Source: Planctomycetota bacterium
Lineage (GTDB): Bacteria > Planctomycetota > Planctomycetia > Isosphaerales > Isosphaeraceae
Assembly (NCBI GenBank): GCA_021808995.1
Contig: JAKBAP010000002.1
Coordinates: forward strand, 1 to 41,464
Direction: 5' to 3'
DNA length: 41,464 nucleotides
A model generated the notes under the pieces. The model made no database searches. It had not been told where the DNA came from and saw only the letters and a program-made list of their open reading frames with translations. Numbering within the stretch: position 1 is the stretch's first letter; each line of letters starts with the position of its first letter. Shown piece by piece: positions 15,395 through 41,275 of the stretch. A program made the translations under genes and the position numbers.

Positions 15395-18300
15395 TCAGGC
15401 GTGGCCGTGACCGTGGGGGTCGTCGCCCGCGCCATGATCGTCGCCATGGCCGCCGAGCTTTTGCCCAGGCTTGTCACGCACGATCAGCGAGTAAATAACG
15501 GGCAAGACAAACAGTGTCGCCGGCTCGCCGGCGGCGAGACCGCCCAGGATGGCACGGGCCAACGGGGCATTGGATTCGCTCCCTCGCTCGAGCGCCATCG
15601 CGCCTGGAATCAGGGCGAAGAACGCGGCGAGAGCGGTCATCGTGATTGGCCTCACTCGCAGGCTGGCCGCCTTGCGAATGGCCTGGATCGGTGTCAGCCC
15701 TTCGTGCCGCCGGAGCTCCTGGGCATAGTCGGTCATGAGCACCGAATTCGCCACCTTGATCCCGACGATGAACACGAATCCGAGCAAGGACTGCACGTTG
15801 ACGGCCGATTTGGTGAGGTACAGAGCCGGCAAGATGCCCACCAGGCAGATCGGCACGATCGACATGACCGAGATCGGCACGATGAACGATTTGTCGAGGC
15901 CGACCATCAGGAAGTAGATGAGCAGCGACGCCAGCACGAGCCCGACCGACAGGCTATTGAACGTATCGGTCATACGCAGGTATTCGCCGGAGAGCACGAT
16001 CTTGGCTCCCTCGAGCCTGGTCTTGTCGCTCCGGTCGGGATCGTAGGGATACCACTGGGCCGACTTGAGCTTGTCGGGAATCCCGAAGGTGTCGATGACC
16101 TTCCAGACGTCGTCGGAGACGTGGCCGAGATCCCGCTCGGACACGCCCATGGTGAGCTCGATGGTCGGCTGGATGTTGTAGTGGGTGACCTCGGTGGGCA
16201 CTTCGCTCTTCTCGACGGTCACGACGTTTCGAAGCGGGATCGGCTTGTGGGGCACATCGGGGCGCGAGGGAGTGATCACGATATCGAGCATGGTGTCGAT
16301 TGACTTGATGTCTTGCTCGAAATACTGCACGCCGCCGAAGTACTGGTTCTTGCTGACCGGGTCGATCCAGAAATTGGTCTTGTTGAACTGAATACTGGAG
16401 TTAAACGCCGCGACCACGTTTCTCATGACGTCTTCCTGGGTCAGGCCCAGCTCGGAGGCCTTGGCCCGTTCGACGTTGATGACGTATTGCGGATAGTCGA
16501 TTCGCTGGATGACGCGGGCGTCGACGACGCCGTTGATCTTCTTGACCTCGTTCTTGATCCGGGTCGCGATCTTGTGAGCGACCTCGAGCTTTTTCCCGGT
16601 GACCCGGATACTGATCGGGGTCGATTTGCCCTCGTTCATGGCCGCTCGGACCATGCCGCCGGCGTCGAACGCGAATTCCAGGTCGTTAAAGGCCGGATCG
16701 GCGGCGAACGCGTTTCGCAGGATCGAGACGTACTCCTGGGCCGACTTGGTCCGGTGCTCGGTGAGCTGGATCTTGACCACCGAATCCATCGGGCCGGCAT
16801 TGGGGGTGTAAGCCGCCGACCAGTCGGAGGTCACGCCCAATTCGCAGAGTACGAGTTCCAGGTCATGAGGAAGGATTTTCTCATGCAAGAAATCCTCGAC
16901 CGCGTGGATTCGTTTTTCGGTTTCCTCGATACGCAGACCGCTTGGGGCCCGGACGTACATTTCGAACGAGCCGGCGTCGACCTCGGGGAAGAAATCGCGC
17001 CTCATGTGCGGCCAGAGGCCAACCACGGTGGCGACCAGAAGGCCGTAACCGATTCCCATCGTGATGTAGGGATGCGCGAGAGCCCCGTCGAGCCCCTTGC
17101 AATAAAGAGCGATGCCCTCGTCGATCAGTTGCTGCCAGCGGGCGAACGCGCGAGCGATGAACCACTGTTTCTTGGGCTTCGGGTGACCATTGCCGTTGAT
17201 CTGGAAGGTCTCGGCACCATTGGAGTGGAGGTCGCCGTGGCTCGCGTCACCGTGTCCATGCCCGTGTCCCTCGCCACCATGGCCTTCGGGGGGGTGGGAG
17301 TGGAGCCAGAACGCGCTACAAGCGGGGACCAATGTTCGCGACAAAATGTACGCCGCGATCATCGAGAACGCGACCGCCATCGCCATCGGCTTGAAGAGAA
17401 ACTGCCCCAGGCCAGGCGTGAATACCAAGGGGGCAAGCACCAGGAAGGTACAGATCGTCGACACGAGCTCGGGCATCGCGACCTCGCTCGCCCCCAGGAA
17501 CGCCGCGTCTCGCGCGGTCGCCCCCATGCTCAGGTGCCGGTGCGTGTTCTCGAGGCAGATGATCGCGCTATCGATCATCGGGCCGATCGCCAGCGTCATC
17601 CCGGCGAGCGTCATGACGTTGATCGTCTGGCCCGCGAAATACAGGGCGGTCGACGACGCCATGATCGCCAGGGGGAGGGTCATGATCGCGATCCCGGTCA
17701 TCCGGAGCTCGCCCAGGAACATGAGGATCACGAGCGAGCAGAGAATCGCCCCCAGGATCCCCTCCTGAAGCAGGGCCTCGATCGATTTCTGGACGTAGAC
17801 CGATTGATCCATCACGAGCTTGAGTCGGATGCCGCTACGGGTTGTCCGCTCTTCCATGTTCTTGAGCTCGGCGGACAGGTTTTTCACCACCGCCAGGGTG
17901 CTGGCGCCAAGCTGGCGATAGACCGGGATATAGACCACGCGCTTGCCGTTGACCCGCACGACGTTGGTCTGAATGTAGTTGGCGTCCTTGGGCGTGGCCA
18001 CGTCGCGAAGGAAGACCGCCCGGCCCTCCTCATAACGAAGCGGGATCTCGCCCATGTCGGAGACCTTGAGATACATCGAGTTTGAGTCGAGCACGTAGTC
18101 GATATTGCCGAACTTGGCGTCGCCGGAGGGAAGGAAGACGTTGGACCCGTCGAAGGCCTTCATCACGTCCATCGGCGACATGCCGCGGGCCTGGAGCTTC
18201 TCGCGGTCGAGATAGATCATGACGGCGCGGATCTTGCCGCCGTAGACCACCGGCGCGACCGCCCCCTGGATCGCCATGATCATGTTCCGGACCTCGTACC

Positions 18301-18784
18301 GGCCCACGTCATAGAGAACCGACTCGTTGTTGTCAGGGTTGTCGCTATCGAGGGCCACGACACACACCGGCGTCGACGAGGTCGGGTCGTAGGGCAACAC
18401 GACCGGCGGAAGCGTCCCCGGCGGTAAATTTGGTAAGACCGAGAGCGCGAGCGAATTCACCTGTGTCAAGGCACCGTTGGGGTCGACGTCCTCGCGGAAG
18501 TAATTCCGCACGATGCTGGCGCCAATGATCGAGCGCGATTCCTGCCGCAACATGCCATTCGCCTGCCCGGTCCATCGCTCCATGCGATTGGTGATGTCGT
18601 TGGCGATGCTATTGGCCGACATGCCGCCGTAAAACGTCAATGCTTGCACCGCCGGTGCCTTGAACACCGGCAGAATGTCCATCGGAATCACGGAGAGACT
18701 GAGCGTCCCCAGCACGACCAGCGTGAGCGACATCACGGTCACGGCGTGGGGGTTTCCGAGCGAGGCTCGTATCAAGCCATTCAT
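15395..18784 (-). CDS. RND-family efflux permease, His-rich
   Basis: AcrB/CusA-like topology: MNGLIRASLGNPHAVTVMSLTLVVLGTLSLSVIPMDILPVF..., TM4 region LAIGPMIDSAIICLENTHRHLSMG, C-terminal LLGFVFIVGIKVANSVLMTDYAQELRRHEGLTPIQAI. His-rich loop and His-rich C-terminus. Confidence 0.92.
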   Translation of the reverse strand: MNGLIRASLGNPHAVTVMSLTLVVLGTLSLSVIPMDILPVFKAPAVQALTFYGGMSANSIANDITNRMERWTGQANGMLRQESRSIIGASIVRNYFREDVDPNGALTQVNSLALSVLPNLPPGTLPPVVLPYDPTSSTPVCVVALDSDNPDNNESVLYDVGRYEVRNMIMAIQGAVAPVVYGGKIRAVMIYLDREKLQARGMSPMDVMKAFDGSNVFLPSGDAKFGNIDYVLDSNSMYLKVSDMGEIPLRYEEGRAVFLRDVATPKDANYIQTNVVRVNGKRVVYIPVYRQLGASTLAVVKNLSAELKNMEERTTRSGIRLKLVMDQSVYVQKSIEALLQEGILGAILCSLVILMFLGELRMTGIAIMTLPLAIMASSTALYFAGQTINVMTLAGMTLAIGPMIDSAIICLENTHRHLSMGATARDAAFLGASEVAMPELVSTICTFLVLAPLVFTPGLGQFLFKPMAMAVAFSMIAAYILSRTLVPACSAFWLHSHPPEGHGGEGHGHGHGDASHGDLHSNGAETFQINGNGHPKPKKQWFIARAFARWQQLIDEGIALYCKGLDGALAHPYITMGIGYGLLVATVVGLWPHMRRDFFPEVDAGSFEMYVRAPSGLRIEETEKRIHAVEDFLHEKILPHDLELVLCELGVTSDWSAAYTPNAGPMDSVVKIQLTEHRTKSAQEYVSILRNAFAADPAFNDLEFAFDAGGMVRAAMNEGKSTPISIRVTGKKLEVAHKIATRIKNEVKKINGVVDARVIQRIDYPQYVINVERAKASELGLTQEDVMRNVVAAFNSSIQFNKTNFWIDPVSKNQYFGGVQYFEQDIKSIDTMLDIVITPSRPDVPHKPIPLRNVVTVEKSEVPTEVTHYNIQPTIELTMGVSERDLGHVSDDVWKVIDTFGIPDKLKSAQWYPYDPDRSDKTRLEGAKIVLSGEYLRMTDTFNSLSVGLVLASLLIYFLMVGLDKSFIVPISVMSIVPICLVGILPALYLTKSAVNVQSLLGFVFIVGIKVANSVLMTDYAQELRRHEGLTPIQAIRKAASLRVRPITMTALAAFFALIPGAMALERGSESNAPLARAILGGLAAGEPATLFVLPVIYSLIVRDKPGQKLGGHGDDHGAGDDPHGHGHA

Positions 18785-18900
18785 GGGAACAAGGTCTCCG
18801 AAACGGAGTTCAAGCGAGGAATGCGCGCGTTTGGTGGGGCGTTCACAATAAGCCAATTCGACCGTGGACGATCATGGGGCGGGATCGAGCTTGGTCAACC

Positions 18901-19224
18901 TTAGCAGCGCAGCGGGCGAACGACAAACGAACCACGCCCCGAGAGACGCGAATCCGGGCAAGATCGGCGAAACAATCGAGATAAGGCAATCAATAGCATG
19001 CTCCCCAGCGTGGGGAGGGGATCGCGACCAGGGAGCGGCAGGACTTCGGGCGCGAGCGATTCGCGCTCTTCCGTGGCTCGACCCAGCCGGGATTTGTGAC
19101 TTGAAGCGGCGGAATGCGACGAGCGGCCCAGGCCTGGTCGCTTGGACCAGCCACGCACCGGGGACGTGGCAAGCGCGATGCCCACCAACGTACACAAGAG
19201 CAATCGCAGAAACCGCGACGCCAT
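18901..19224 (-). CDS. Hypothetical small protein with N-terminal signal/TM segment
   Basis: MASRFLRLLLCTLVGIALATSPVRGW reads as a signal peptide or TM helix, with a second hydrophobic segment LGSMLLIALSRLF. Lies upstream of the RND gene on the same strand. No recognised family. Confidence 0.3.
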   Translation of the reverse strand: MASRFLRLLLCTLVGIALATSPVRGWSKRPGLGRSSHSAASSHKSRLGRATEERESLAPEVLPLPGRDPLPTLGSMLLIALSRLFRRSCPDSRLSGRGSFVVRPLRC

Positions 19225-19430
19225 GCCTAGCCCCATAATGGACCCCAATTCAAGACCGCCCGCTCGATTCATGTTACCTGACTGGGACATTCTGTCAACC
19301 GCTTTAATCCGGCGACTCACTACTAAACATCAAGTCGATCCGTCCACCAACCGATGGAACATCGAAGAGCCTACCGATAAATGGAGTTCGGACTGTTGTG
19401 CGGAAACCCCGGGAGGAGAGGGTGGAGACA

Positions 19431-21347
19431 ATGAGACAGATTCGCGCGGTCGGGGCGGTCGTGGTCGCCGCGGCGATCCTTTGGAGCCCATCGCCGGCAC
19501 GGGCGCAGGGTCCAACCAGATCAGGTTCGCCTTCCACTCCTCCCGCTTCAACCCCCATGGCGACGCCCGGACCGGCGAATAACCCGGTCCGCCCGCCTGG
19601 CATGGCACAACCAGGCATGGCACAACCAGGAGGCAATGCGGGATCGCCTGTCCCGTCCTTGCCCTCCATCGCTCAACCCGGCAATGGAGGATCGGGCCGC
19701 GAGCTTACCGGGCTTGCCCCGCTTCCCCCATCGCCCAACACGATCCTCTCCGTCGAGGTTCAACCGATCGACCTGACGACCGCGCTGCGGTTGGCGGGCG
19801 TCCAGAACCCAGAGATCAATGTGGCCAGGCGGAGGATCTTGATCGCGGTGGCGGAGCGCCAACTCGCGGCGGCTTACTTTCTGCCGTCGATCAATCCGGG
19901 TGCCAACTATGACACGCACACGGGCGTCTTGCAGCAGTCCAACGGCAATATGCTGTCGGTGAATCGGTCCGCCGTGTATGTCGGGGCCGGGAGCAACGCC
20001 GTCGCGGCCGGGACGGTCAACGTGCCGGGTGTTTTCTTGCAAGAGAACGTGGGCCTGGGCATTTACAACTATCTCGCGAGCCGCCAGGTGGTTCGCGAGC
20101 GTGAGTTTGACACCTTGTCCGTCCGCAACCAGGTCTTGCTCCAGGTGACCCAGGCCTATAGCGAGCTGTTACGGGCGGAGGGGACTCGGGCGGTTCAGGA
20201 TCAGGCTCGGGAAGAGGCGAGGGTAATTGTCAAGTTGACCACCGATTTCGCGAAATCGGGGCAGGGTCGAGAGGCCGACGCCAATCGTGCGGCCACCAAC
20301 CTCGCCATGCGTGAATCGGACGTCCAGAAAGCGGAGGCGGACGTCCTGGTCGCATCCGCGACGCTCTGCCAGTTGCTCAATCTGGACCCCTCGATTCGGC
20401 TGCATCCCACCGATGCGTTCATCGTGCCGCATCCGCTGGTGCCCGACCCGATTTCGGTCAAGGAGCTGATCGCGATCGGGATGCTCAACCGACCCGAGCT
20501 GGCGGCCCAACGAGCGGCCATTCAGGCGGCTCTCATGAACCTGGGCGGGGCCAAGATTCTGCCGTTTTCGCCCAATCTGATGGTTGGATTCAGCGCGGGC
20601 GGATTTGGCGGTGGTAGCAACCTGGTGCGACCGCTCTTCGGCGGGTTCGGGGGTCGAACCGATACGGACGTCATCGGGTACTGGACCATCCAGAACCTGG
20701 GGCTCGGTAACGTCGCCCTCATCCGCCAGGCCTCGGCAAGGTTGCAGGTCTCGCAGTTTCAGCAGGTCGAGATCTTGAACATGGTTCGCGCCCAGGTCGC
20801 CGAGGCCTATGCCAAGGCCCACGCCCGCTATGCCCAGATCAGCACCTATGAAAGCGCGGTCCGAGCCGGCTTCCTCTCGTTTCACGAGGATCTCGACCGC
20901 ATCAAGCTCATGGGCGGAAACCAGAGAAACAACGTGCTCCCGATCGAGCTCTTGAACAGTTTTGATTTGCTCGCGACCTCGAGAAAGTCGTATCTGGACA
21001 CGATCATTGACTTTAATCGAGCTCAGTTCGAGATGTACGTCGCCCTGGGCCAACCGCCGGCCGACGTTCTGGCTCAGCCCGCCCCGACCGAGGGGGTGTA
21101 TCCCAGGAATCTTCCCGCGAGGCCCGCGTCGACGCCCGCCGGGGCGGCACCCAACGCGGCGAGGCCAAGCGCATCGAGCGCGCCTCGTGCCTCGTCCATT
21201 ACCGTGAGTTCGGCCTCGGGCGTTCAGGGCGTGAAGCCCGCGAGCATGCCCACCGTGAAACCCGATCGTTCGCGTGACGTCCAGGGGGCTGGGATCATTC
21301 CGCCTCCCACCGATGTCGCCGGTCTTCTTAAACCCGTGGCGCGATGA
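19431..21347 (+). CDS. TolC family outer-membrane efflux protein
   Basis: Signal peptide MRQIRAVGAVVVAAAILWSPSPARA, TolC-type helices (IDLTTALRLAGVQNPEINVARRRILIAVAERQLAAAYFLPSINPGANYDTHTG; SGQGREADANRAATNLAMRESDVQKAEADVLVASATLCQLLNLDPS). Confidence 0.9.
   Translation: MRQIRAVGAVVVAAAILWSPSPARAQGPTRSGSPSTPPASTPMATPGPANNPVRPPGMAQPGMAQPGGNAGSPVPSLPSIAQPGNGGSGRELTGLAPLPPSPNTILSVEVQPIDLTTALRLAGVQNPEINVARRRILIAVAERQLAAAYFLPSINPGANYDTHTGVLQQSNGNMLSVNRSAVYVGAGSNAVAAGTVNVPGVFLQENVGLGIYNYLASRQVVREREFDTLSVRNQVLLQVTQAYSELLRAEGTRAVQDQAREEARVIVKLTTDFAKSGQGREADANRAATNLAMRESDVQKAEADVLVASATLCQLLNLDPSIRLHPTDAFIVPHPLVPDPISVKELIAIGMLNRPELAAQRAAIQAALMNLGGAKILPFSPNLMVGFSAGGFGGGSNLVRPLFGGFGGRTDTDVIGYWTIQNLGLGNVALIRQASARLQVSQFQQVEILNMVRAQVAEAYAKAHARYAQISTYESAVRAGFLSFHEDLDRIKLMGGNQRNNVLPIELLNSFDLLATSRKSYLDTIIDFNRAQFEMYVALGQPPADVLAQPAPTEGVYPRNLPARPASTPAGAAPNAARPSASSAPRASSITVSSASGVQGVKPASMPTVKPDRSRDVQGAGIIPPPTDVAGLLKPVAR
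19599..19628 (+). repeat. 15-bp direct tandem repeat within the first TolC gene
   Basis: GGCATGGCACAACCA repeated twice perfectly (19599-19613 and 19614-19628), encoding PGMAQPGMAQPG in a low-complexity linker. Confidence 0.9.
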
Positions 21348-21390
21348 GGATCATGCCGTCTCCTCTCTCCCCTCAAGAAAGGATTCGCAC

Positions 21391-23265
21391 GTGAATTCCG
21401 GGTCTTTCAAGCGCCATCCCATTGTACGTCTCGCGGTCGTCGCGACCGCGCCCGTGGCGGCGGCCCTGTTGGTCGTCGGCTGCGCGACGGACGAGGCCGC
21501 GCGGATGAGCGAGTCGGTCTATCAGTGGAAGGCCCTAGCGAATGGGGCTATTCCACCCACGGGGGTCAAGGTGGTCGCTCCGCCATCGGCGGTCGCGGCG
21601 ACCGCTCCGCCAGCGCCGGCGGCGATCGACTCCCTGGGCGTCCCCAAGCCCCCCGAACTGTTCGCGGAGGAGTCGCCGACTGGCTCCGCCGTGCCCAGTC
21701 TCGCTCCCTCGCCCAAGGACGCGCCCCCGCCGCCGATCTCGATCGCCCTTGATCCCAAGGGGGGTTCCCAGATCGCCGGCAAGCCGCTCCCCTCCATTAC
21801 GCTCCCGCCGCCGGGCGCTCCCGCCTCGCCGCCGACCGCCCTTGCCGCGGGAGGTCCACGACGCGACGACGCGCTCTCGCCGGTCTCGCTCGATCCCAAG
21901 ACCGTCGTCCCGGTCCCGACGTCCATTCCGACCCCGCCAGCCGAGTATCCCATCGACCTGGCGACGGCCCTGCGATTGGCCGACTCGTCCAACCCCACGA
22001 TCAACGTCGCTCGGAGCTTGATCCTGGAGGCCCTGGCCCAGCAGCTCACGGCTCGGACCTTGCTCGTGCCCTCGCTCAATGGTGGCCTGAGCTATCACGA
22101 CCACACCGGGCCCAGCCAACGGTCGGCGGGCACCATGATCAATCTGACGCAGCAATCGCTCTATATCGGAGCGGGGGCTAGCACGGTCACGGCCGGAACC
22201 CTGGCGATTCCCGGCGTGAGTATCTTTTCCCAGTTGACCGACGCATGGTACGAGCCGCTGGCCGCCAGACAACGGGTCATTGGCTCGCGATTCAACGTCA
22301 TGGCGACCTCGAACGATATCTTGCTCGACGTCGCTCTTCTGCACCTTCAGTTGCTGGGCGCGAACGCCGAGTTCGAGGCTCAGCGGATCTCGGAGACCCA
22401 GGCCTACGAGATCGTGCGGGTCACCGACGAATACTCGACCACTGGCGAGGGCCGGCAGGCCGACGCCGAGCGAGCCAAGGCCGAATGGAACCTGCGCAGG
22501 GCCGACGTCCAAAAAGCGGAAGAGGCCGTCGGCGTCTCGGCCGCTCGCCTGGCCATGAGGCTCAATCTCGATCCCTCTGTTCGGTTGCTCCCCATCGGCG
22601 GCCCCTTGACCCCGCTGATCCTGATCGACCTTGATTCGACCCAGCAAGAGCTGATCAAGGTCGCTCTCGACCGTCGTCCCGACCTGGCCACCCGAACCGC
22701 CCAAATCGGCGAGGCCGAGGTCCGAAAGCGGCAAGAAATCGGCCGCCCGCTCCTTCCCTCGCTGTGGCTGGGATTCAGCGGCGGCGGTTTCGGCGGCGGA
22801 AGCAATCTCACCCCGCCGACCCTCGGCCGGTTCGCGGGGCGTACCGACTTTGACGTCCAGCTCTACTGGACGCTCATGAACTTTGGGGCGGGAAACCTCG
22901 CCTTGATCAAGCAACGCGACGCCCAGCTCGGAGAGGCCGTCGCCGTACGTCAACGCACCATCAACCGCGCCCGGGCCGAGGTCAGCCAGGCCCTGGCCGA
23001 CTCACGTGCCGCCTATCACAAGATCAGCATCGCGCGGGCCGAGCTGGTCTCGTCGGACAAGGGTTTCCGCGAGGACTTCTTGCGAAGTCGCGACAATCTT
23101 GGCAAGCCGATCGAGGTCATCAACAGCTTGAACCTGCTCGCCGACGCTCGGGTGCATTTGATCCGGGCGCTGGTGGAGTTTGATCAATCGCAGTTCCGGT
23201 TGTGGGTCGCCCTGGGTGCTCCGCCCCCCTTGGTCGACATGCAGCGCTCCGGTGTCGGGGGCTGA
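21391..23265 (+). CDS. TolC family outer-membrane efflux lipoprotein
   Basis: GTG start preceded by AAGAAAGGA; lipobox LLVVGCATD; IDLATALRLADSSNPTINVARSLILEALAQQLTARTLLVPSLNGGLSYHDHTG parallels the preceding gene. Confidence 0.9.
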   Translation: MNSGSFKRHPIVRLAVVATAPVAAALLVVGCATDEAARMSESVYQWKALANGAIPPTGVKVVAPPSAVAATAPPAPAAIDSLGVPKPPELFAEESPTGSAVPSLAPSPKDAPPPPISIALDPKGGSQIAGKPLPSITLPPPGAPASPPTALAAGGPRRDDALSPVSLDPKTVVPVPTSIPTPPAEYPIDLATALRLADSSNPTINVARSLILEALAQQLTARTLLVPSLNGGLSYHDHTGPSQRSAGTMINLTQQSLYIGAGASTVTAGTLAIPGVSIFSQLTDAWYEPLAARQRVIGSRFNVMATSNDILLDVALLHLQLLGANAEFEAQRISETQAYEIVRVTDEYSTTGEGRQADAERAKAEWNLRRADVQKAEEAVGVSAARLAMRLNLDPSVRLLPIGGPLTPLILIDLDSTQQELIKVALDRRPDLATRTAQIGEAEVRKRQEIGRPLLPSLWLGFSGGGFGGGSNLTPPTLGRFAGRTDFDVQLYWTLMNFGAGNLALIKQRDAQLGEAVAVRQRTINRARAEVSQALADSRAAYHKISIARAELVSSDKGFREDFLRSRDNLGKPIEVINSLNLLADARVHLIRALVEFDQSQFRLWVALGAPPPLVDMQRSGVGG

Positions 23266-30354: not shown

Positions 30355-30561
30355 GGTCGCCACCCGTCCCCTGAATCATTTCAGACCAAAAGCCGCCACA
30401 TTCCAGCCTCTGTTATTAACTATGTCTCATACCGACCCGTGTCCAGGATGGGACGCGCGAACACCCGGACGGGGGCCGGCGGCGAGGAAAATTTCGTGAT
30501 TCGCGAAGTAGACTGCTTTCGTGACCTAGCCTAGCTCTTAGGATGAGGGAGGATGTGGAAC

Positions 30562-32136
30562 ATGCCGATCGACGTGAGCGTGAAAACTCCGTCCGCGCCG
30601 ACCAACGGGAAAATCCCGGTCGATGCCCATGCGGCGCGGCTAGCCCGAGAGTTGGCGAGTGAATTCGAGGCACCGGCGGCGATCCTCGACCTGGGTCAGC
30701 GTTCATGGGCGCGTGTGGAAGGGCGCGACGTGTCCCAGTTCCCTGGCCCTTACCAGACCGCCTCCGAAGCCGCGGGAAACGTGGCGGTCGTCCATGGCGA
30801 CGTGAGCGTCTGGCGTCGCCAGGATGATCCCTCGATAGTCTGGTTGCTCATGCCCCTTGAGGCCCCGGACCGGCGGCGGGTGCTCGGCTGCGTGGGATTC
30901 GCCGACTGGAAATATCGCGGGATCTTGCCCGAGAGCGAGGGTGATTGCCCATGGGGCCCCCCCTGCCCCGACCAGGCGCTCGCGGCCTGGGGGCGGCAAG
31001 CACAGGCTCGGCTCCGCCCTCCCGAGGCTCTCCCTCCGTCGGGGGGTGTCGAGGGTGACGAGGAATGCGAACATACCGTGATTGGCAGGCTGATCCGCCG
31101 GCTGAGAATCTCGGACGCTCCCCGCGATTTTCAGTCGCTGGCCGCGAACGTCCTACGCACCTCGCTCAAGGTCGCGGCCGTCGTCTGGGTTCCCAAGGAC
31201 CCCAAGGATCGGGTCGTGATGAGCGGCCATGTCGAGGGCGTCCCACCCCAGGCCTATCGCGCGTTTCCGTCCCCCTCGGGCCGCGACTCCACGGTCGTCT
31301 CGCGCGATGGCGAGGTCCTCATCCGCATCGGCGCGCCACTCGCCGTCCGCCGATACGCCTCGGTCGCCGCCGGCTCGCTCGGGTGGCTCCTGGCCGTCAA
31401 CCCCTTGGGTGATCGATTGATCACGTCAAGCGACGTCGAACGGATGCAATACGTCGCATCCCTGATCGCGACCCAGCTCTCGAACAATCGAACCTATGGA
31501 GACCTGAAGGAATTGCTCTTCGGGATCATCCGTGCCCTGACCGCCGCCATCGACGCCAAGGACCCCTATACCTCGGGGCATTCCGAGCGGGTAGCCCGGA
31601 TCGCCGTGCGAATCGCCGAGGAAATGGGCATCTCCGCCCCCAAGCGCAGCGACCTCTATCTGGCGGGCTTGCTGCACGACGTCGGAAAAATCGGGATCGA
31701 CGATCAGGTCCTCAAGAAAACCGACCGGCTTACCCCGGCCGAGTACGAACAGATCCAATCCCACGTCGAAATTGGCGTGACGATCCTCAAGGATCTCAAG
31801 AAGCTCAGCCACATCATCCCCGGCGTCCGCCACCATCATGAGAGCCTCGACGGCACCGGATATCCCGACCATCTTCTGGGTGAGGAAATCCCGATCGAGG
31901 CTCGAATCCTGGCCGTCGCCGACGCCTTCGACGCCATGTCCAGCAATCGCCCCTATCGCAAGCGGCTCTCGCTGGCGCAGATCGACCGGATCTTCACCGA
32001 AGGCAAGGGCGTCCAGTGGGATCCGGTCGTGATCGAGGCCCTCTTCGCCTGTCGAGGCGACCTTGAGGCGATCCGCCAAAAAGGGCTCGGCGAAAGCCTG
32101 ATTGGGGCCGTCAACGTGACCTTGGGCCAGCATTAA
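30562..32136 (+). CDS. GAF-like / HD-GYP domain protein
   Basis: DPYTSGHSERVARIAVRIAEEMG, LAGLLHDVGKIGIDDQVL, VRHHHESLDGTGYPDHLLGEEIPIEARILAVADAFDAMSSNRPYR. Upstream region resembles a GAF domain. Confidence 0.92.
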   Translation: MPIDVSVKTPSAPTNGKIPVDAHAARLARELASEFEAPAAILDLGQRSWARVEGRDVSQFPGPYQTASEAAGNVAVVHGDVSVWRRQDDPSIVWLLMPLEAPDRRRVLGCVGFADWKYRGILPESEGDCPWGPPCPDQALAAWGRQAQARLRPPEALPPSGGVEGDEECEHTVIGRLIRRLRISDAPRDFQSLAANVLRTSLKVAAVVWVPKDPKDRVVMSGHVEGVPPQAYRAFPSPSGRDSTVVSRDGEVLIRIGAPLAVRRYASVAAGSLGWLLAVNPLGDRLITSSDVERMQYVASLIATQLSNNRTYGDLKELLFGIIRALTAAIDAKDPYTSGHSERVARIAVRIAEEMGISAPKRSDLYLAGLLHDVGKIGIDDQVLKKTDRLTPAEYEQIQSHVEIGVTILKDLKKLSHIIPGVRHHHESLDGTGYPDHLLGEEIPIEARILAVADAFDAMSSNRPYRKRLSLAQIDRIFTEGKGVQWDPVVIEALFACRGDLEAIRQKGLGESLIGAVNVTLGQH

Positions 32137-32157: not shown

Positions 32158-32595
32158 TCACTTCATCGCGCTGTAATCGGTGGGTTCCATGAAGACCGAG
32201 TCGACCTTCTTGACCAGGACGCCGTTCTTATGGCTTTCGGCGTAGACCTTTTTCCACTCGGGATCGTCGCTAAACGCCTTCCAGGTCGCCGTGGCGGCCT
32301 CGCGACTGGGAAAGGCGACCAGATAGATGAGCTTCGATCCCTTGCCGTCCTTGTCGTCGGTCGGGGTCCAGAAGCCGACCAGCTCCGCGCCATGCTTGGT
32401 TAAAAGAGCACAGGTATGCTCGCGAAATCGCGTGTGCAGATCGTCGAGCTTGCCTTCGTTAAGGTAATAGGTCCTGAGCTCGAAAACGCGTGGCGCGGAT
32501 CGAGCGGACCCGGCGGCGGGGGCGGCCTTTTCGGTCGCGGAGAGCGAAAAGGCGGCGATGATCAGGACAAGGCCGGTGAGGGCGCGACGAATCAT
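32158..32595 (-). CDS. NIPSNAP family protein, secreted
   Basis: Signal peptide MIRRALTGLVLIIAAFSLSATEKAAPAAG; RVFELRTYYLNEGKLDDLHTRFREHTCALLTKHGAELVGFWTP. Confidence 0.88.
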   Translation of the reverse strand: MIRRALTGLVLIIAAFSLSATEKAAPAAGSARSAPRVFELRTYYLNEGKLDDLHTRFREHTCALLTKHGAELVGFWTPTDDKDGKGSKLIYLVAFPSREAATATWKAFSDDPEWKKVYAESHKNGVLVKKVDSVFMEPTDYSAMK

Positions 32596-32626
32596 GACTG
32601 AGGCTCCAGGAGGGTTTCGAGATCGC

Positions 32627-32667
32627 CGCTTGGGCGGGTGACTCTCTTGTAGCACCCCGCCCAGGCG
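32627..32667. terminator. GC-rich hairpin between the A2M-like gene and the NIPSNAP gene
   Basis: CGCTTGGGCGGGTG (32627-32640) and CACCCCGCCCAGGCG (32653-32667) pair over about 14 bp with one wobble and one bulge. No clear U-tract on the minus strand. Confidence 0.4.
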
Positions 32668-32683: not shown

Positions 32684-35600
32684 TCATCGGAAGCCGCCGG
32701 CGGGAGCGCCCTTGGCCGCGTCGGCGGGGAGCTGCTTGAATCGGTCCTCGAGCCGCTGGATCCGCGAGGAGTTATTCATCTGATTCATCGATCGGAGATT
32801 GCCCTCAAGCGATTGGTCGGCGTCGAGTCGCCTTGCCTGGCCGGCCGCGCCTCCGGTCGTCGCCGACGTGGGGGGGATGGGCTGAGCGCCCAGAAAGGCC
32901 GTTCCGCGATAGAGGGCGTAACGCGACGTCCCCTCGCGGGCGACGGCCGTCGCCAATCCCACCACCCCCTCCGCCAGGAAGACGCCGCGAAGGTCGGTCT
33001 CGCCCGAGATAAACTCGCCATTGCCGTTCCCCTTGATCCTCACCTGGACATGGGGCAGAAACGCGCGGGTCGCGGAGTCGCGCACGGTCACCCTGACGCT
33101 CCCCGCCTGGGGGTCCTCCAGAGTCTCGAGTTCGAGAGGCGAAACCAGCACCACGCCCGAGGCATAAAGACTCTCGCCTTTCATGATCACCAGATACGCC
33201 CCCTCGCGCTCGAGCGGCAACTCGATCGCCCGCGTGCCGAGCTCGCACGAGGGCTCGCCCAAGGGGATCTCTTTCTGAACCAAGGGGGCGATCCCCGCCA
33301 GGTCGATCGCGGCGATTCCCGAAAGGTCGCGCCGGCTGAGATAAAGCCGCATCAGGTCGACTGGGTAGACCTTGAGCTCGAGCTTTGCCAGGTTGCGATA
33401 CGAGACCACGACGCGATTGGGCGGACCCTTGGGCGCGACGGCGGGCGAGGCACCGACGGGCGTGCCCGAACGCCTGGCGAGGGTGATTTCCGGAATTGAC
33501 AGCTCCTTGCGAGACAACGAAACGACCGCGCTGGCCGCGTCGCGATAGCGGTCGGCCACCTGGCGATAGTATCCCAGGGCCCGGGCCGGCTCGTGGCGGG
33601 CGTCGTGGATCTGGCCGAGGATATAGATGGCTTGCCATTTGTTGGGGCTGGGCTCGTCGAGGCCGGCTGGGCTTTTGTAGACGGCCTTCGAAATGGATTC
33701 GGCCGCGGCGATCGCCTGATCGTGGCGGCCGAGCTTGAACGCCGCCAGGGCGCGGGCGTATTGGAAGCCGTCGATGAATCTGCTCTTGGGGCGGTTCCGC
33801 GCGAACCGTTCGGCGAGCGCGAGCACGGCCTGGTCGTCGCCTTCGTCGGAAACGACGCCCAGGAGCGACAGTTCAGCCTCGTCGGCCAGGGGATTGGTCG
33901 GCGCCATCGCCAGGAACAACCGGATCATCCGAGCGCCCTGAAGCAAGAGCTCGGGCCGGGTGACGCCGGCCAAGGCGAGCTTTTGACGGACCGACGGATC
34001 GGTCGCCGCGCGGCTGGCCGTCTCGATCACGACCTGCGAGAGCCCCAGGAAATCGCTCTCGAGCGCGGGCGATTCGGGATAGGCACGCCACAATTCGATC
34101 AAATGCCCGATCGCCTCCAGTGGCCGCCCTCGCTGACGCAAGAGCTCGCCCACCCGCGCGTCCTCGAGAAAGCTCGCCTCGATCATCCCCCTCCACATGA
34201 TCATCGCGCGTTCGTATTCGTTGATCTCCTGATATCCAGACGCGATCGCGCGGAGCTGGTCGTAATTGAGCACCAGATCCGGGGCTTTTTCCTTGACGAG
34301 CTCGAAATCGCGGACGATCTCGCGTGGTTTCTTGAGCTCAAGGTTGGCGAGCAAGAGCATCCTGGCGGCTTCGCTCAGGAACTCGTCCCTGGGGGTGAAT
34401 TGCTCGGTATAGGGTTCGAGGGCGGCCGTCGCCAGCGCGAACCGCCGGGCCTGAAACTGGGCCTTCCCCCGCGCGAAGAGCTCGTCGGGGGTGGGCTTGT
34501 AGGGGTCGGTTCCGGGCTCGCCGCGGGGGTGAATCGTGAGCCTCCCCGGCTCGCCCAGATGGCCCACGCCCGGATCCTCGGCGGTTCGCGCCCGTGGCGG
34601 GGGGACGCGATATTCGCCCGGGATCACCCCCGTGAGTTCGTAAGTGATCAGGCCAGGGTCGCGTTGGGGTCCAAAGGCAAGGGTCAACACCCCGTCGTCG
34701 AGACCGACGTAATCGGCCGACGACACGACCGAGCCCTCGACGAGCGAAGCCCCCGCGGGGAGGTAATCCTGAACGATCACCCCGTCGTTCATGTTCATAG
34801 GTTGGTTATTGAACGATGGGCGATTGGCCGTGAGCAGCACGCGAGTGGACCCGCCGAGCGCGACCTGGGTCGCGATGTTCTCGAATGGCTTGGGGTCGAG
34901 GATGGTCGCGAAGCCGGTCGCGAGCCGATGACCGTCGAGCTCGGATGGGGCCGGCGAATAGACCCTGCGCTCGACCACGACCTCCTGGCCCGCGCGATTG
35001 CGTTCGGGCTCGATCGAGCGAGTGAACCCCGACAACGTCGCGGCATATTCGTACCGACCGCGACCCTCGATCGCGAGCCCGATCGTGTTGGGCCGATCGA
35101 GCCTGAGGACGGCGGGCGGGGGCGTGAATTCGCGGCTCGCGCCGGCGCCGGCGACGTCGAGCGCGGCGACCTTGACCTCATTGACGGTGATAGTCAAGTG
35201 ATAGTTGGTCAATGCCTCGCGGGCCTTGCCGTGGTATGCGGCGAGGGCGGCGACGGTCGGCCCGACGGCGGCGCGGGGCCGATAGCCGAGCCCTTGCCGG
35301 TTGGATTCGAGCCAGGCGATCGCGGGGGCGAGCTCGGGGGCCGTCGGCCTGGCCTTGGTCAGGGCCAGGGCGGAAATCGCCGTCGTCTCGATCGAAAGCG
35401 AGGGGGCCTGGATGGCGGCGTCGCTCCAGTGGATCCGATCCGGCCGGCCGGGGGCGACGGGCTCGCGCTTCGCCCGAGAGACGAGGATCGCGAGCGCCTC
35501 GTCCGCGAGCGCGGGCCGGTCGAGGCTGGCGAAGACAAGCGCCAGCCGGGCCAGGCTCGCGCTTGAGAGGCTCGCGCGCGCTCGGTTCAAGCGATTGGCC

Positions 35601-38600
35601 TCTTCAAAAGCCGCCTGCTTGCGCGTCGACAGCGCGTGGAGCACGAGGGCGCGTGATTCGTGGTCGCTCGTGCCAAGCCGGGCATAATCTTGCTTGAGAT
35701 AGGCGAGCCCACGCTCAAGGGAGCGGGGATCGCTCACCAGGCCAAGCGGCTGGGCCGACGCGAGCGCCCACACGGCAATCGCGGTCGAGCGGCGATCGCT
35801 GGTCCCGGGTCCAGGCGGGCTCGCCTTGCCTCGATAAGGCGACGGCGAACGGATGGCCCACGACCAACCGCCGTCGTCGTTCTGGGCGGCCACGAGACCC
35901 GAGGCGAGCGAGCGCGCGCGGTCGACCAACCGATTCCCCTCGGGCGCGAGTCCGGCCTTGATCTGGCGCAGGTATTCAATGGCTTGCGCCGAGGCTAAGA
36001 GATCCGAGGCCCGATCGAGATTCGTCGGGCATGGGAACGCGGGAGCGGACATGGGCTCGCGCCCAAGCCGGCCCGATCCCAGCGCGATCTCGGCGATCAG
36101 GTTCGATTTCATCGGCGAGATCACGATCCGCATCGACGGCTGGCTGTATTCTCGACCTGGGGGTAATTCGAGCAAGAGGGTCTCGTCTCCCTGGCTTGAG
36201 CCGGCGGCGGAGGCGACCGCGTGAACCCCCCATGGCCGGACTTGGGCCAGAGTCGTGACCGCGTCATGTTGTTCCCCGAGCTGGGCCGTGAGCAAGAGCG
36301 TCAGCGACCCAGACGAGGGGACCTCGTACGGGTCAAAGAGAACCTCGGCGAGCCCACTTGGTCCCAGATCGACCACCATGGGAAACACCGACTCCCGTTC
36401 CCCCGACCGAATGGTCAGCCTCAGTTCGGCCTTGCCACGGGCGTCTCCGTGATAGAGCCGCGCCAGGAACCGAGGTCGATCCCCCTGGTTCACGATCATG
36501 GGCGCTCGCAGGTCGAGGAAAAACGACTTGCCGACCACGATCGACGTTTCATCCTGCCCGGCCAAGGTGTCCGATCCGGTCACGCCCCGAGCCAGGACGC
36601 GGTATCTGGCCATCGAGAGCGGCGCCTTGAAGACGACCTTGGCCTTGCCGTCCTTGCCCGTCACGACCCGCGGGTTCCAGTAAGCCGTCTCGGTCCGCAT
36701 GGGGCGTGGAGGGGCCTCGCCCCCGCGGGCACCGGGCTCTAAACCTTCGCCCCGATCTCGACCGCCCTTCATTTCAGCCCCCTGGGTGCCGACGATGACA
36801 GGCGCTCTCCCCATCCCACCCATCCCCCCCATGAGGCGGTTCGCGCCACCAGGCCTCGCCGGTGCTTGCGCCAGCTCCACTTGTTTGCCGAGAATCGCGC
36901 CAAACCGCCCATCAAGGCGTTTCCGGTCGTCGGCGTCGGCTTTATCCGCGGCGGCTTTCTCTTGTTCCTCGACGACGGAACGAGCGACAGCGGTCGTTGG
37001 AGGTTCGTATCGAAATGTGTTTGTCGATCTGATGGCAAAGCAGCCCGAGCGGTTCTGATCGTAAAAAAAGGTGTCAATCGCCGGCCGCGGCTCGACACCG
37101 AGCCGCCAGATAGCCTGGTCGACCATGCCCAGGGACAATTCGGCCGAGACCGGTCGACCGATCTGGTCGGTGGTGGTGATGGCGATTTCGATCGATTCGC
37201 CGGGACCGACCGTCGATCGGGTGGGGGTGACCGTGAGCTTGAGATCGCGTTCGATCGCGAGGTCGAGCGAGGCCTGATCGAGTTTATCGCGCCACATCCG
37301 GGTCGCGGTGAGGCTCAAGTTGGGTGCCTGGCTGGGGATGACGTCCCATTCGAGCCGGTTGTCCCCCGCGTGGAGCTCGACCAGTTTGTAGGAGAGAATG
37401 CGATCGGCGTCCCAGGTGATGAGCGCGGTGCCGGCTCGGGCGCGACTGTTGAGATTGACCTTGGCCTTCTCGCCGACTTTCCAGGTCTGGCGATCGGCGA
37501 GGAGCAGGAGTTCGTCCTCGGACTCGGATCCCGAGATCACGACCTGCTCGTTCGCGTGGATGACGTTGCCAAATTGATCGACACCCTGAGCGTGGAGCAA
37601 GTAAGAACCCCCTTCCCGGTCGTCGAGACGAATCGAGGCCGTGGTTTTTCCGGTCGTGGGGTTGGTTTTCACGCGGGGTCCCTGGATCACGCGACCGCGT
37701 TCCGCTTGCTTTTCGAGCCTGAGCTCGAGCTCAACCCCGATGGGCTTTCCCTGGGCGTCGGTGGTCTCGAGAGTGGCAAGCGCTGTCTCGCCACTGACGT
37801 AGACTTGCCGGGGCAACGAGACTTGGATTCCGAACCCCAGAACGGCGACGCGGAGCTGGGCCTGGGCGTCGACGCCGTCCTCGGGAAGTCTGGCGGCGAT
37901 CGTGAGCGCCTGATCCTCGAGAAAGTCGGTGGTTGGGAGCTCGAAGGCGAACAGGCCGGCCTGATCGGTCGACCCTCGCAGGATGCGTCCGTCGGGAAGG
38001 GTGACGACGACCGGTCGAGAGGCGGGAGCGCCATGCTGGTAGCGGGCCGCGACCGCTCCCTTGATGGTTTCGCCGCGATAATAGACCGTGCGATCGAGCT
38101 TGAACTCCAGGTCAAAGGGAAGCAACTCGTACGCCTGGACGGTGAATTTCCCGTGAAAGTCGCTCTTACCGGGCTGGACCAGATGGATCTGGTACTCGCC
38201 CAGGGGAGCGCTTGGGTCGAGACTGAGCTGCTCCTGGAAGGTGCCGAATTCCGAGAGTGAGACGTCACGGGCGGCGACGACTCGGCCCTGGCTGTCGGCG
38301 ACCTTGAAATCATAGGCGGCCCCGGCGTGGACGGCGTATTGGCCCTGGTCGACCTCGCGGACGACGCCGCGAATTCGCACGGTCTGGCCGGGACGATAGA
38401 CGGGGCGGTCGGTGTCGAGATAGGCGCGCGGCGTGAGCCCGATGGCGACCGTTCCAGGGATCGCCAGGGCGGTCCCCGCGGCATGCCGGCCATCGAGCAC
38501 GAGACAGCTTAACGGCGTATTCGGGTCCTTGGCATGGTCCCAATCCTTGATCAGGACGCCGTCGGCCCCGGTGGTCCCATCCACGATCACCTGGCCGTTT

Positions 38601-40657
38601 TGGGCCACCAGAACCCTTGTTCCCGGTCGACCCCGGCCGGTTTTCATGTCTTGTGCATAGACCAGCACCTGATCACGTGAGGCTTTGATCACCGCGTCCA
38701 GGTCGCTGGCGATCACGAGGGTGGTGGCCTGGAGGGATTTTTCGTCGGACACGCGAACGACGTGGACGCCTGGCGATTCGAGGGGTTTGAGTTCATATTC
38801 ACCGTCGACGGGCTTGTATCGCGCGTATCCTGGCACGGGGACGGTCCATGTCGCGTCGGGGGCGACCAGGCCGATGTCGAGGGCTTCCACGCCGGAGAGG
38901 GTGGTTTTCTTGCGGAAATAGGCCTCGGCGTCGAGCCTGTAGGTCGAGAAGGTCAGGGATTCGAGATTGCGGGTCGCGATCTTGAGCTTGGGAGATTCGC
39001 CGCCGCGGAAGACGCGAGGGGTAACGACGGCGAGATGCTTGGCCTCCATCATCTGGATTTCATCCCGCGCCTGGGTTCGCCAGGGCTCGAGCGTGATCTT
39101 CTTGAGTCGTTCGATCGCTCCGACCGGGTCGCCCTGGGCCTGGTTCACGAGCAAGGCGGCCTCGAACTGGGCGTTGGCCGCTTTTTCGGATTCCGGGAAC
39201 CGCTGAATGAGCTCGTCCCAGGCGGCGACGGCCTGGGCGACCTGTTTTTCGTCGCTCAGGCTCTCGCCGATCTGGAAGAGCGCCTCGGGTGCTCGCGAAT
39301 CGAGCGGGTTGTCCGCGACGAACTGGCGCCAGGCGGCCCTGGCCTTGGCCTGTTGGCCCGATTGCTCGAGGTCGTCGGCGATTTGCAGCCGGGCGTCCAG
39401 AATGGCTCGCTGGGCGTCGGTCCCCTGGGGGCCGTTGGGGAACTCCACGAGGTAGCGCTTCCAGGCCGCGATGGCGAGCTCGTAACGACCCAGCTCCTTG
39501 AGGACCCCGCCGATCTCGAACGACGCCGTCATCGAGAGCGCCGCGAATTCGCGACGGGCGGCGTCGGTCTCGAGCCTGAAATCCTGTTTTTTGAGAAATC
39601 GCTCGAGGGCGGCGAGGGTTTCTTCCGTCTCTTCGCCGGCCTTGTGCGTGGCCGCGATTTGATAGGCGGCGGTGACGGCCCGAGGATGGCCGGGATAGGC
39701 CGCCAGGAATTGCTTGAGGGCCTGGATCCCCCGGCTTCGGCTCGAGTCATCGGGAGGATCGGGGACCCCATGCGAGAGCGCGATTTCATGGAGTGCGTCG
39801 GCACGAATGGCGTCGGCGGCTGGCCTCGCGAGGGCTTTCGTGGTCGCCAGCTCGGCCGCCAGGTCGGAAAGGGTCGCTCGAGCGGCGACCGCCTGGCCGC
39901 CGCGACGGAGCGATTGACCCAGGGCGAGCCGCGCGGCGAATCGGCGCGGGTCGCCGGGGTGGTCCGCGAGGTAGCGATTGAGATCGGCGATGGAACGCGT
40001 TTCATTGCCGGCGGCCGCGCTCGCCCGGGCCATCACCAGGAGCAGCCTTGCTCGCTCGGCCGGGGAGACCGCGAGGGCGTGGGCCTGCTCGAGCAGAGCA
40101 TGGGCTGCCTCGGGGTCGGGCTTCTGGAGAGGGTCCTTGGGCTCGAGCAGGCGAATGGCGATGTCGTGATAGACACTGGCCAGAGCGTCCTTGCGGGCTC
40201 CGGAGAGCAACTCGCCGGTGATTTCTTGCAAGAGCGCGAGGGAGCCTTGAGGGTTGCCTTCCTTGGTTTCCAGGTCGGAAAGCGCGCCGGCGAGCTTGGC
40301 GTGAAAGCGCCCGTGGGGGTTTTGCCCGAGCGCGCGTTTCAGGACGGCCCGAGCCTCGTCCCGCCGACCCGCGAGCCTTCGGGCATTGGCCTCGAGCAAC
40401 GCGAGAAAGCTCCGCGTGTCAGGGTCTTTTTCGTCCTCGATCCGCCTGGCCAGGGTCTGGGCCGCGACGTCGAAACGCCCCTCCTCGATCGCGTCGATCG
40501 CCTCGGCGGGGGGCAAGGGCGCGGGGGGCTCGAGTGCTTTCTTGCCGGCCGCGACCATGGGCTCATCCGCCGAGAGCATCGCGACCGCCTGATAACCGAC
40601 CGCCATCGTCGCGACGACCACCCCGATCCCAAACCTCAAACGGTTGCTGGTAATCAC
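32684..40657 (-). CDS. Very large alpha-2-macroglobulin (MG2)-like protein with TPR-like regions
   Basis: MG2 hallmark LDTDRPVYRPGQTVRIRGVVREV; A2M-type AYWNPRVVTGKDGKAKVVFKAPLSMARYRVLARGVTG; TED-like alpha-toroid region with GLVAAQNDDGGWSW; N-terminal and C-proximal TPR-like repeats. GTG start at 40657 with GGGGAGGA upstream and signal-like N-terminus (ITSNRLRFGIGVVVATMAVGYQAVAML). Confidence 0.88.
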   Translation of the reverse strand: MITSNRLRFGIGVVVATMAVGYQAVAMLSADEPMVAAGKKALEPPAPLPPAEAIDAIEEGRFDVAAQTLARRIEDEKDPDTRSFLALLEANARRLAGRRDEARAVLKRALGQNPHGRFHAKLAGALSDLETKEGNPQGSLALLQEITGELLSGARKDALASVYHDIAIRLLEPKDPLQKPDPEAAHALLEQAHALAVSPAERARLLLVMARASAAAGNETRSIADLNRYLADHPGDPRRFAARLALGQSLRRGGQAVAARATLSDLAAELATTKALARPAADAIRADALHEIALSHGVPDPPDDSSRSRGIQALKQFLAAYPGHPRAVTAAYQIAATHKAGEETEETLAALERFLKKQDFRLETDAARREFAALSMTASFEIGGVLKELGRYELAIAAWKRYLVEFPNGPQGTDAQRAILDARLQIADDLEQSGQQAKARAAWRQFVADNPLDSRAPEALFQIGESLSDEKQVAQAVAAWDELIQRFPESEKAANAQFEAALLVNQAQGDPVGAIERLKKITLEPWRTQARDEIQMMEAKHLAVVTPRVFRGGESPKLKIATRNLESLTFSTYRLDAEAYFRKKTTLSGVEALDIGLVAPDATWTVPVPGYARYKPVDGEYELKPLESPGVHVVRVSDEKSLQATTLVIASDLDAVIKASRDQVLVYAQDMKTGRGRPGTRVLVAQNGQVIVDGTTGADGVLIKDWDHAKDPNTPLSCLVLDGRHAAGTALAIPGTVAIGLTPRAYLDTDRPVYRPGQTVRIRGVVREVDQGQYAVHAGAAYDFKVADSQGRVVAARDVSLSEFGTFQEQLSLDPSAPLGEYQIHLVQPGKSDFHGKFTVQAYELLPFDLEFKLDRTVYYRGETIKGAVAARYQHGAPASRPVVVTLPDGRILRGSTDQAGLFAFELPTTDFLEDQALTIAARLPEDGVDAQAQLRVAVLGFGIQVSLPRQVYVSGETALATLETTDAQGKPIGVELELRLEKQAERGRVIQGPRVKTNPTTGKTTASIRLDDREGGSYLLHAQGVDQFGNVIHANEQVVISGSESEDELLLLADRQTWKVGEKAKVNLNSRARAGTALITWDADRILSYKLVELHAGDNRLEWDVIPSQAPNLSLTATRMWRDKLDQASLDLAIERDLKLTVTPTRSTVGPGESIEIAITTTDQIGRPVSAELSLGMVDQAIWRLGVEPRPAIDTFFYDQNRSGCFAIRSTNTFRYEPPTTAVARSVVEEQEKAAADKADADDRKRLDGRFGAILGKQVELAQAPARPGGANRLMGGMGGMGRAPVIVGTQGAEMKGGRDRGEGLEPGARGGEAPPRPMRTETAYWNPRVVTGKDGKAKVVFKAPLSMARYRVLARGVTGSDTLAGQDETSIVVGKSFFLDLRAPMIVNQGDRPRFLARLYHGDARGKAELRLTIRSGERESVFPMVVDLGPSGLAEVLFDPYEVPSSGSLTLLLTAQLGEQHDAVTTLAQVRPWGVHAVASAAGSSQGDETLLLELPPGREYSQPSMRIVISPMKSNLIAEIALGSGRLGREPMSAPAFPCPTNLDRASDLLASAQAIEYLRQIKAGLAPEGNRLVDRARSLASGLVAAQNDDGGWSWAIRSPSPYRGKASPPGPGTSDRRSTAIAVWALASAQPLGLVSDPRSLERGLAYLKQDYARLGTSDHESRALVLHALSTRKQAAFEEANRLNRARASLSSASLARLALVFASLDRPALADEALAILVSRAKREPVAPGRPDRIHWSDAAIQAPSLSIETTAISALALTKARPTAPELAPAIAWLESNRQGLGYRPRAAVGPTVAALAAYHGKAREALTNYHLTITVNEVKVAALDVAGAGASREFTPPPAVLRLDRPNTIGLAIEGRGRYEYAATLSGFTRSIEPERNRAGQEVVVERRVYSPAPSELDGHRLATGFATILDPKPFENIATQVALGGSTRVLLTANRPSFNNQPMNMNDGVIVQDYLPAGASLVEGSVVSSADYVGLDDGVLTLAFGPQRDPGLITYELTGVIPGEYRVPPPRARTAEDPGVGHLGEPGRLTIHPRGEPGTDPYKPTPDELFARGKAQFQARRFALATAALEPYTEQFTPRDEFLSEAARMLLLANLELKKPREIVRDFELVKEKAPDLVLNYDQLRAIASGYQEINEYERAMIMWRGMIEASFLEDARVGELLRQRGRPLEAIGHLIELWRAYPESPALESDFLGLSQVVIETASRAATDPSVRQKLALAGVTRPELLLQGARMIRLFLAMAPTNPLADEAELSLLGVVSDEGDDQAVLALAERFARNRPKSRFIDGFQYARALAAFKLGRHDQAIAAAESISKAVYKSPAGLDEPSPNKWQAIYILGQIHDARHEPARALGYYRQVADRYRDAASAVVSLSRKELSIPEITLARRSGTPVGASPAVAPKGPPNRVVVSYRNLAKLELKVYPVDLMRLYLSRRDLSGIAAIDLAGIAPLVQKEIPLGEPSCELGTRAIELPLEREGAYLVIMKGESLYASGVVLVSPLELETLEDPQAGSVRVTVRDSATRAFLPHVQVRIKGNGNGEFISGETDLRGVFLAEGVVGLATAVAREGTSRYALYRGTAFLGAQPIPPTSATTGGAAGQARRLDADQSLEGNLRSMNQMNNSSRIQRLEDRFKQLPADAAKGAPAGGFR

Positions 40658-41275
40658 GATGTTTCCTCCCCGTGATGGATGCTCGCGCTCAGCCGTGACC
40701 GATCGCACGCGGCCACGCGATGGCTGTTCGCTGATTATGACGATCGAAGCGGTCGCCCTGATTGGGAAAATCTCGCGGATTGGACAAACATTTTCATCGA
40801 AACTCCGTCCCGATGCCGATTCGATTCCGTAATAAGTCCCGATCAAAGGTCGCGGACGGCCCATGATCTGGGTGGAATCCCTGGCCCAGGCGCTGGAAAA
40901 TGACGCTTCGCTCGATTGAGTCGGTTCGCGAAATGCGTTCTAATCTGAGATTGGTGACGGCTGGGCACGACGGCCGTCCAATCAGTCAACGATCGATCAC
41001 TGGGTTTCTTAGACGACTTCGAGCGATTTTCGGTTCCGGATGAGCCCGCTCCGCGAGATCCCTATTTGAGCGAGGCCAGGCTCTGATCCTGAAGAGCCTT
41101 ACTCTACAGCATGTTACGTCGAATTGTCGGAGTTTTTTGGAAAACCCTGTCGCGTTCTGTCGGCGGATCACGACTTGCTTCGTGTTAAGGGCAGCCCGAA
41201 CTGCTTGGTGACACCTCCTGATTCGTATCGCGTCGAATTCTTGGTTTCAAGGGAAAGCTGGTTTGGAGGGTGTGG

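Follow-up and report, generated by a model that had tools for sequence, protein, structure and literature searches.

Alpha-2-macroglobulins (A2Ms), known from blood as protease traps, capture proteases following bait cleavage. The bacterial type I proteins (E. coli YfhM/ECAM and Salmonella Sa-A2M; PDB 5a42, 4u48, 4zjh) are built from NIE-MG1, MG domains, a bait region, CUB-TED and a terminal MG domain, in that order, and two segments of the E. coli protein, NIE-MG1 and MG0-NIE-MG1, have been crystallised (4zjh and 4zjg). MagD of Pseudomonas aeruginosa, a type II A2M, has an A2M core and a bait region and no CXEQ motif; it is encoded in the six-gene mag operon, forms complexes with MagA/B/F, and traps protease non-covalently (PMC5764988). 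A further system, CAGE, is a hollow homotetramer of ~2,216-aa subunits from Tetrahymena and Dictyostelium, whose homologues are mostly bacterial, are commonest in Planctomycetota and Verrucomicrobiota, and for the most part carry signal peptides (preprint, PMC12485934). CAGE1 (2,216 aa) starts with helical domains 1-2 and beta domains 3-8, for two of which the closest fold was that of A2M, followed by helical domain 11 set within a split beta domain, beta domain 12, helical domains 13-14, and a 202-aa beta domain 15; no Pfam domains were reported for it, and domains 1 and 13 were without a PDB match (PMC12485934).

The window, that is, the whole stretch of 41,464 nucleotides that was analysed (Planctomycetota bacterium, Isosphaeraceae; assembly GCA_021808995.1, contig JAKBAP010000002.1), encodes a protein with the overall order TPR / NIE-MG1 / MG2 to MG7 with bait loop / CUB-TED / MG10 / TPR / NIE-MG1. 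It shares the type I domains and their order, and its opening unit recurs behind the last A2M domain. Features are given from the start of the gene to its end, with positions of the window:

32684..40657, minus strand: whole gene, ~2,657 codons from the likely GTG start; frame open to ATG 40864
40665..40671, minus strand: Shine-Dalgarno-like GGGGAGG, 7 bases before GTG 40657; sequence read directly
40565..40657, minus strand: Sec-type signal peptide MITSNRLRFGIGVVVATMAVGYQAVAMLSA, no lipobox Cys; read from the sequence
39053..40522, minus strand: first TPR block, aa 115-604, of YbgF/CpoB/BamD-like TPR_6 type
38462..39037, minus strand: N-terminal NIE-MG1 module, aa 610-801, invariant Arg-Asn at aa 632-633
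37223..38428, minus strand: MG2 to MG5, aa 813-1214; Pfam MG2 8.8e-22
36533..37195, minus strand: MG6 split by the bait region, aa 1224-1444; boundaries by eye from predicted strands
36716..36919, minus strand: bait-like loop, aa 1316-1383; predicted disordered, hypervariable
36236..36523, minus strand: MG7, aa 1448-1543
35165..36235, minus strand: CUB-TED region, about aa 1544-1900; helical TED degenerate
36011..36040, minus strand: thioester position of relatives (GCVEQ); here PCPTNLDRAS, motif lost
34529..34978, minus strand: MG10/receptor-binding-like beta domain, aa 1963-2112; end point of ordinary A2Ms
33515..34489, minus strand: second TPR block, aa 2126-2450; length nearly invariable over 27 divergent members
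32891..33448, minus strand: C-terminal NIE-MG1 module, aa 2473-2658, Arg-Asn at aa 2490-2491, TDLRG at 2623-2627

The gene lies in a single uninterrupted open reading frame of 2,726 codons on the minus strand (32684-40864). Because GGGGAGG precedes GTG 40657 and a typical Sec signal peptide opens there, translation probably starts at this codon and not at ATG 40864. Orthologues also start with hydrophobic signal stretches, and the mature protein is probably exported; no lipid anchor was seen in the signal peptide as read from the sequence. The preliminary description had placed an A2M-like protein at 32684-39010, which was correct as to the kind of protein but not as to its upper limit, since the gene reaches ~40657 and the first TPR block lies beyond that range.

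For the core of the protein, all Pfam matches were above cut-off (MG2 8.8e-22; A2M_BRD 1.3e-9, aa 1121-1253; A2M 1.6e-8, aa 1393-1465), and a model of aa 598-1600 (mean pLDDT 83.5, pTM 0.70) matched the E. coli A2M with an E of 4e-39 over 1,082 columns, and the Salmonella A2M with 1.5e-38. The family profile matched Salmonella A2M (4u48, 6.6e-25), human A2M (3.8e-23), and also complement, with an alignment to 4u48 that extends through the TED to the last domain, the last stretch being weak by itself; TED_complement and bMG10 matches were found in the relative L097. The segment at aa 1316-1383 had a pLDDT under 50 and was predicted to be disordered, and the counterparts of aa 1291-1389 were 80-278 aa long with the lowest conservation within the core; in alignment and model the segment is bait-like, behaving as a bait region should. 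The CXEQ thioester was absent from the window protein, which reads PCPTNLDRAS where relatives have GCVEQT, and the tyrosine of the family consensus RSAY, near the end of MG10, was by eye a glutamate. In the corresponding domain of E. coli A2M, an EXMY motif helps to hold the TED (PMC4498604). With Pfam domains of the MG ring, a variable bait region, and a predicted helical TED followed by a terminal MG domain, the protein is, on sequence and modelled fold, a member of the A2M superfamily.

Alignment of the protein to itself paired aa 2473-2632 (33448-32969) with aa 615-774 (39022-38543) at 27% identity over 163 columns (blastp against the whole protein, E 5.7e-8; phmmer, 1.9e-11), with a score of 110 that was reached by 0 of 2,000 shuffles (shuffle maximum 68). 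Profile-profile comparison of the N and C modules from 25 orthologues gave 97.9% probability (E 5e-13), and comparison of one TPR block plus module with the other produced a colinear alignment across the TPR-module junction at E 8e-22, a value whose weight lies in the modules and the junction, as TPR repeats align readily to one another. By this colinearity, the TPR block preceding each module is part of the repeated unit. The Arg-Asn pair of the N copy was invariant among 27 divergent members, and that of the C copy was invariant in 25 close copies and mostly retained in divergent ones.

An AlphaFold2 model of aa 1890-2726 (mean pLDDT 82, pTM 0.50) had 4zjh (E 7e-8) and 4zjg (E 1e-7) as its best two PDB matches. 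A profile of 31 C-terminal modules, made from sequence and independent of the model, also had 4zjh as best PDB match (E 1.4e-4), and a profile of the N-terminal modules matched Salmonella A2M (E 0.0012). Since model, C-module profile and N-module profile all fall on bacterial A2M, both ends are, by profile and predicted fold, the NIE-MG1 pair of a bacterial A2M and not a single MG domain. The duplicated terminal module, the TPR-like repeats ahead of both copies, and the order TPR / MG-like / MG2-A2M-TED / TPR / MG-like, all put forward in the preliminary description, thus held up, the order being unusual as described, the self-alignment significant, and the C-terminal part of the same family as its N-terminal counterpart.

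The same layout proved to be widespread in the phylum. Of 294 Planctomycetota genomes sampled, 115 had a match to the C-module profile. Most of the matching ORFs were 2,300 to 2,900 aa long, and in many cases the profile gave a further match, to the N copy within the same ORF. The segment order TPR1, N module, MG2, BRD, A2M, TED, RBD, TPR2, C module was found in 18 of 20 divergent loci, with a few single segments below threshold; of the other two, one had a wrong frame chosen and one was represented by its first half only. The frame is likewise unbroken in Singulisphaera acidiphila DSM 18658 (L034), whose chromosome is complete, and in single-contig genomes (e.g. G014). Across these genomes, the layout is that of a conserved family of the phylum and not an oddity of one genome. 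Two or more copies of the architecture, sometimes on different contigs, were seen in genomes G202, G192, G087, G063 and G117.

A tree was built from 31 N modules, 31 C modules and 12 modules of other A2Ms. In it, the N copies grouped together in a clade (98/95), and so did the C copies (97/89), the N+C pair being separated from most other A2Ms (88/88), and the long-branched L106 joining the N side. Because N copies and C copies form separate clades, the tree indicates a single duplication that predates the radiation of the family; a recent, lineage-specific duplication was rejected on the same grounds. What emerges is an ancient, phylum-wide bacterial A2M family built by copying its own N-terminal unit onto its C-terminus. 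A mobile or viral origin was also rejected, as neither plasmids nor viral contigs gave a match to the family, and the viral fold matches were to generic TPR and Ig-like proteins.

The thioester was retained in 10 of 31 members, was absent from all 20 members of the clade that holds the window protein, and was lost independently in L088. On the tree of the two modules, with the thioester assumed to be ancestral, two or more losses are required, one of them at the root of the 20-member clade. The motif (GCVEQ or similar) is intact in the deep members L084, L085, L086, L087, L089 and L097-L101, so some of the family may still trap covalently.

Conservation among 25 close orthologues was highest in the N module (0.69), the C module (0.67) and TPR2 (0.66), followed by the MG2 and BRD fold (0.65), ANA (0.61), and TED and TPR1 (0.55 each), and the length of TPR2 stayed within 337-351 aa across 27 divergent members. 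By these measures the duplicated unit is under strong selection.

Compared with type I A2Ms, the window protein carries a TPR block in front and a second TPR + NIE-MG1 unit behind, has no lipobox anchor, and belongs to a clade in which the thioester is missing; no PBP1c neighbour was recognised among the ORFs scanned. Compared with MagD, with which it shares the A2M core, the bait region and the lack of a CXEQ motif, its family has no conserved operon (12 loci), and the thioester was lost inside a family whose deep members retain it. Since the thioester, the lipobox and the PBP1c neighbour of type I are all wanting, and an operon like that of MagD is wanting too, the protein is neither type I nor type II in the MagD sense, and is best called a new architectural variant within the A2M superfamily. 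The TPR-A2Ms of the same class of Planctomycetota (~1,930 aa, L102-L104) share the TPR block, NIE-MG1 and the full A2M core, but keep the thioester (CxEQ) and end after MG10, with no second TPR + NIE-MG1 unit. These shorter proteins are well suited as a reference against which to judge the contribution of the second unit. Across the 12 loci no gene partner was conserved beyond close relatives, and a dedicated operon partner is therefore unlikely.

Taken together, we read the protein as a secreted A2M whose N-terminal unit of TPR block and NIE-MG1 was duplicated once onto the C-terminus, and which serves as a periplasmic, non-covalent protease trap with its arms assembling a closed oligomer; as a whole, we hold this reading to be evenly poised between right and wrong. 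The parts of it taken directly from the results above are the A2M core with its disordered bait loop, the homology of the end units, the export signal as read from sequence, the loss of the thioester in the clade, and the single origin. In the periplasm (paryphoplasm), a protease would cut the bait loop and would then be held by conformational change alone, without a covalent bond, by analogy with the thioester-less MagD of Pseudomonas. The two end units would act as assembly arms, pairing between or within protomers, and the paired arms would close the protomers into a multi-subunit chamber, the second arm being the part that is missing from ordinary TPR-A2Ms. Self-assembly is favoured over an operon-encoded complex because no gene partner is conserved across the family. 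Both structure models are of single chains, and, given the pTM of the C-terminal model, any placement of the arms is tentative. If the arms do assemble the protein, the second unit would be an uncomplicated way for a monomeric protease trap to become a closed chamber. Since binding to other proteins is common among TPR blocks, the arms could instead serve to recruit a partner, and the lost thioester together with the lost lock tyrosine could mean that trapping was lost altogether.

A different role would follow if the window protein were a bacterial form of CAGE, a structural shell or chaperone-like container for which bait cutting is irrelevant, with CAGE itself being an A2M in derived form. 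This reading and the protease-trap reading share the idea of assembly and part ways over whether protease trapping is the role; we regard the CAGE reading as tentative, with the balance leaning somewhat against it. The window protein and CAGE (Tetrahymena I7MLD7, Dictyostelium AbpF) are alike in their succession of helical and beta domains, A2M-like beta domains, similar size and signal peptides, and Planctomycetota, in which the window family is common, is a main bacterial home of CAGE homologues. By the printed domain list, with which alone the comparison was made, the domain order is the same: the split beta domain around a helical domain in CAGE would correspond to CUB around TED, its 133-aa beta domain to MG10, and, after a second helical region, its 202-aa beta domain to NIE-MG1, the terminal beta module of the window protein being of 200 aa. 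However, every family member scanned matches Pfam A2M and TPR families whereas CAGE1 is reported to match none, eight beta domains were counted by eye before CUB-TED in the window protein against six before the TED-like part in CAGE1, and no CAGE chain was among the PDB matches listed, by sequence or by fold. Other literature yielded no useful CAGE sequences or domain descriptions. The agreement in domain order is suggestive, order alone not being homology.

A broader proposal, that the family bridges A2M and CAGE, would make the CAGE proteins of bacteria and protists A2Ms with an added second TPR-NIE-MG1 unit at the C-terminal end, whose duplicated arms turn a monomer into a closed megadalton shell; we find it credible, if slightly less probable than its denial. 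Were this bridge true, the thioester-bearing deep members would suggest that the shell first served to trap proteins covalently. A true link would also explain where CAGE came from in evolution and suggest a biochemical role that can be tested, the thioester-bearing relatives being the obvious proteins for assay.

It is unlikely, though still a reading of some substance, that the end units are docking platforms, whose TPR blocks bind envelope proteins (e.g. peptidoglycan synthases or Tol-Pal parts) and bring the trap to the cell wall. YbgF/CpoB and BamD are the nearest matches of the first TPR block (TIGR02795 4.8e-23, TIGR03302 1.3e-14, both below the curated cut-offs), but this TPR_6 similarity is generic, and while type I A2M genes adjoin PBP1c in a number of bacteria (PMC5764988), a scan of the ORFs recognised no PBP, Tol or Pal gene beside the present gene, and its neighbours, as noted, are not conserved beyond close relatives. 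We consider it very improbable that the C-terminal unit merely remains from a tandem gene duplication and has no role: its match to the start of its own protein is what a fused, truncated second gene copy would give, but together with TPR2 it is among the best conserved parts, is nearly constant in length, and occurs phylum-wide. An assembly or fusion artefact of the contig, conceivable for a window from a fragmented assembly (586 contigs), has a negligible chance of being the explanation and was refuted by the same unbroken frame in the complete and single-contig genomes named above.

Around the gene, a NIPSNAP-family protein (32158-32655, minus strand) and an HD-GYP-type protein (30553-32136, plus strand) adjoin it, with similar neighbours only in a few close relatives. 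Long plus-strand frames lie opposite the gene (36743-38260, also delimited as 36866-38260; 33500-35566; and 38681-40675) and recur in relatives; high G+C codon use is their most likely cause, and they are probably not genes. Elsewhere in the window, at 15395-23265, the minus strand carries an AcrB-type RND efflux pump gene, and adjoining it on the plus strand are two genes for outer-membrane efflux (OEP) proteins.
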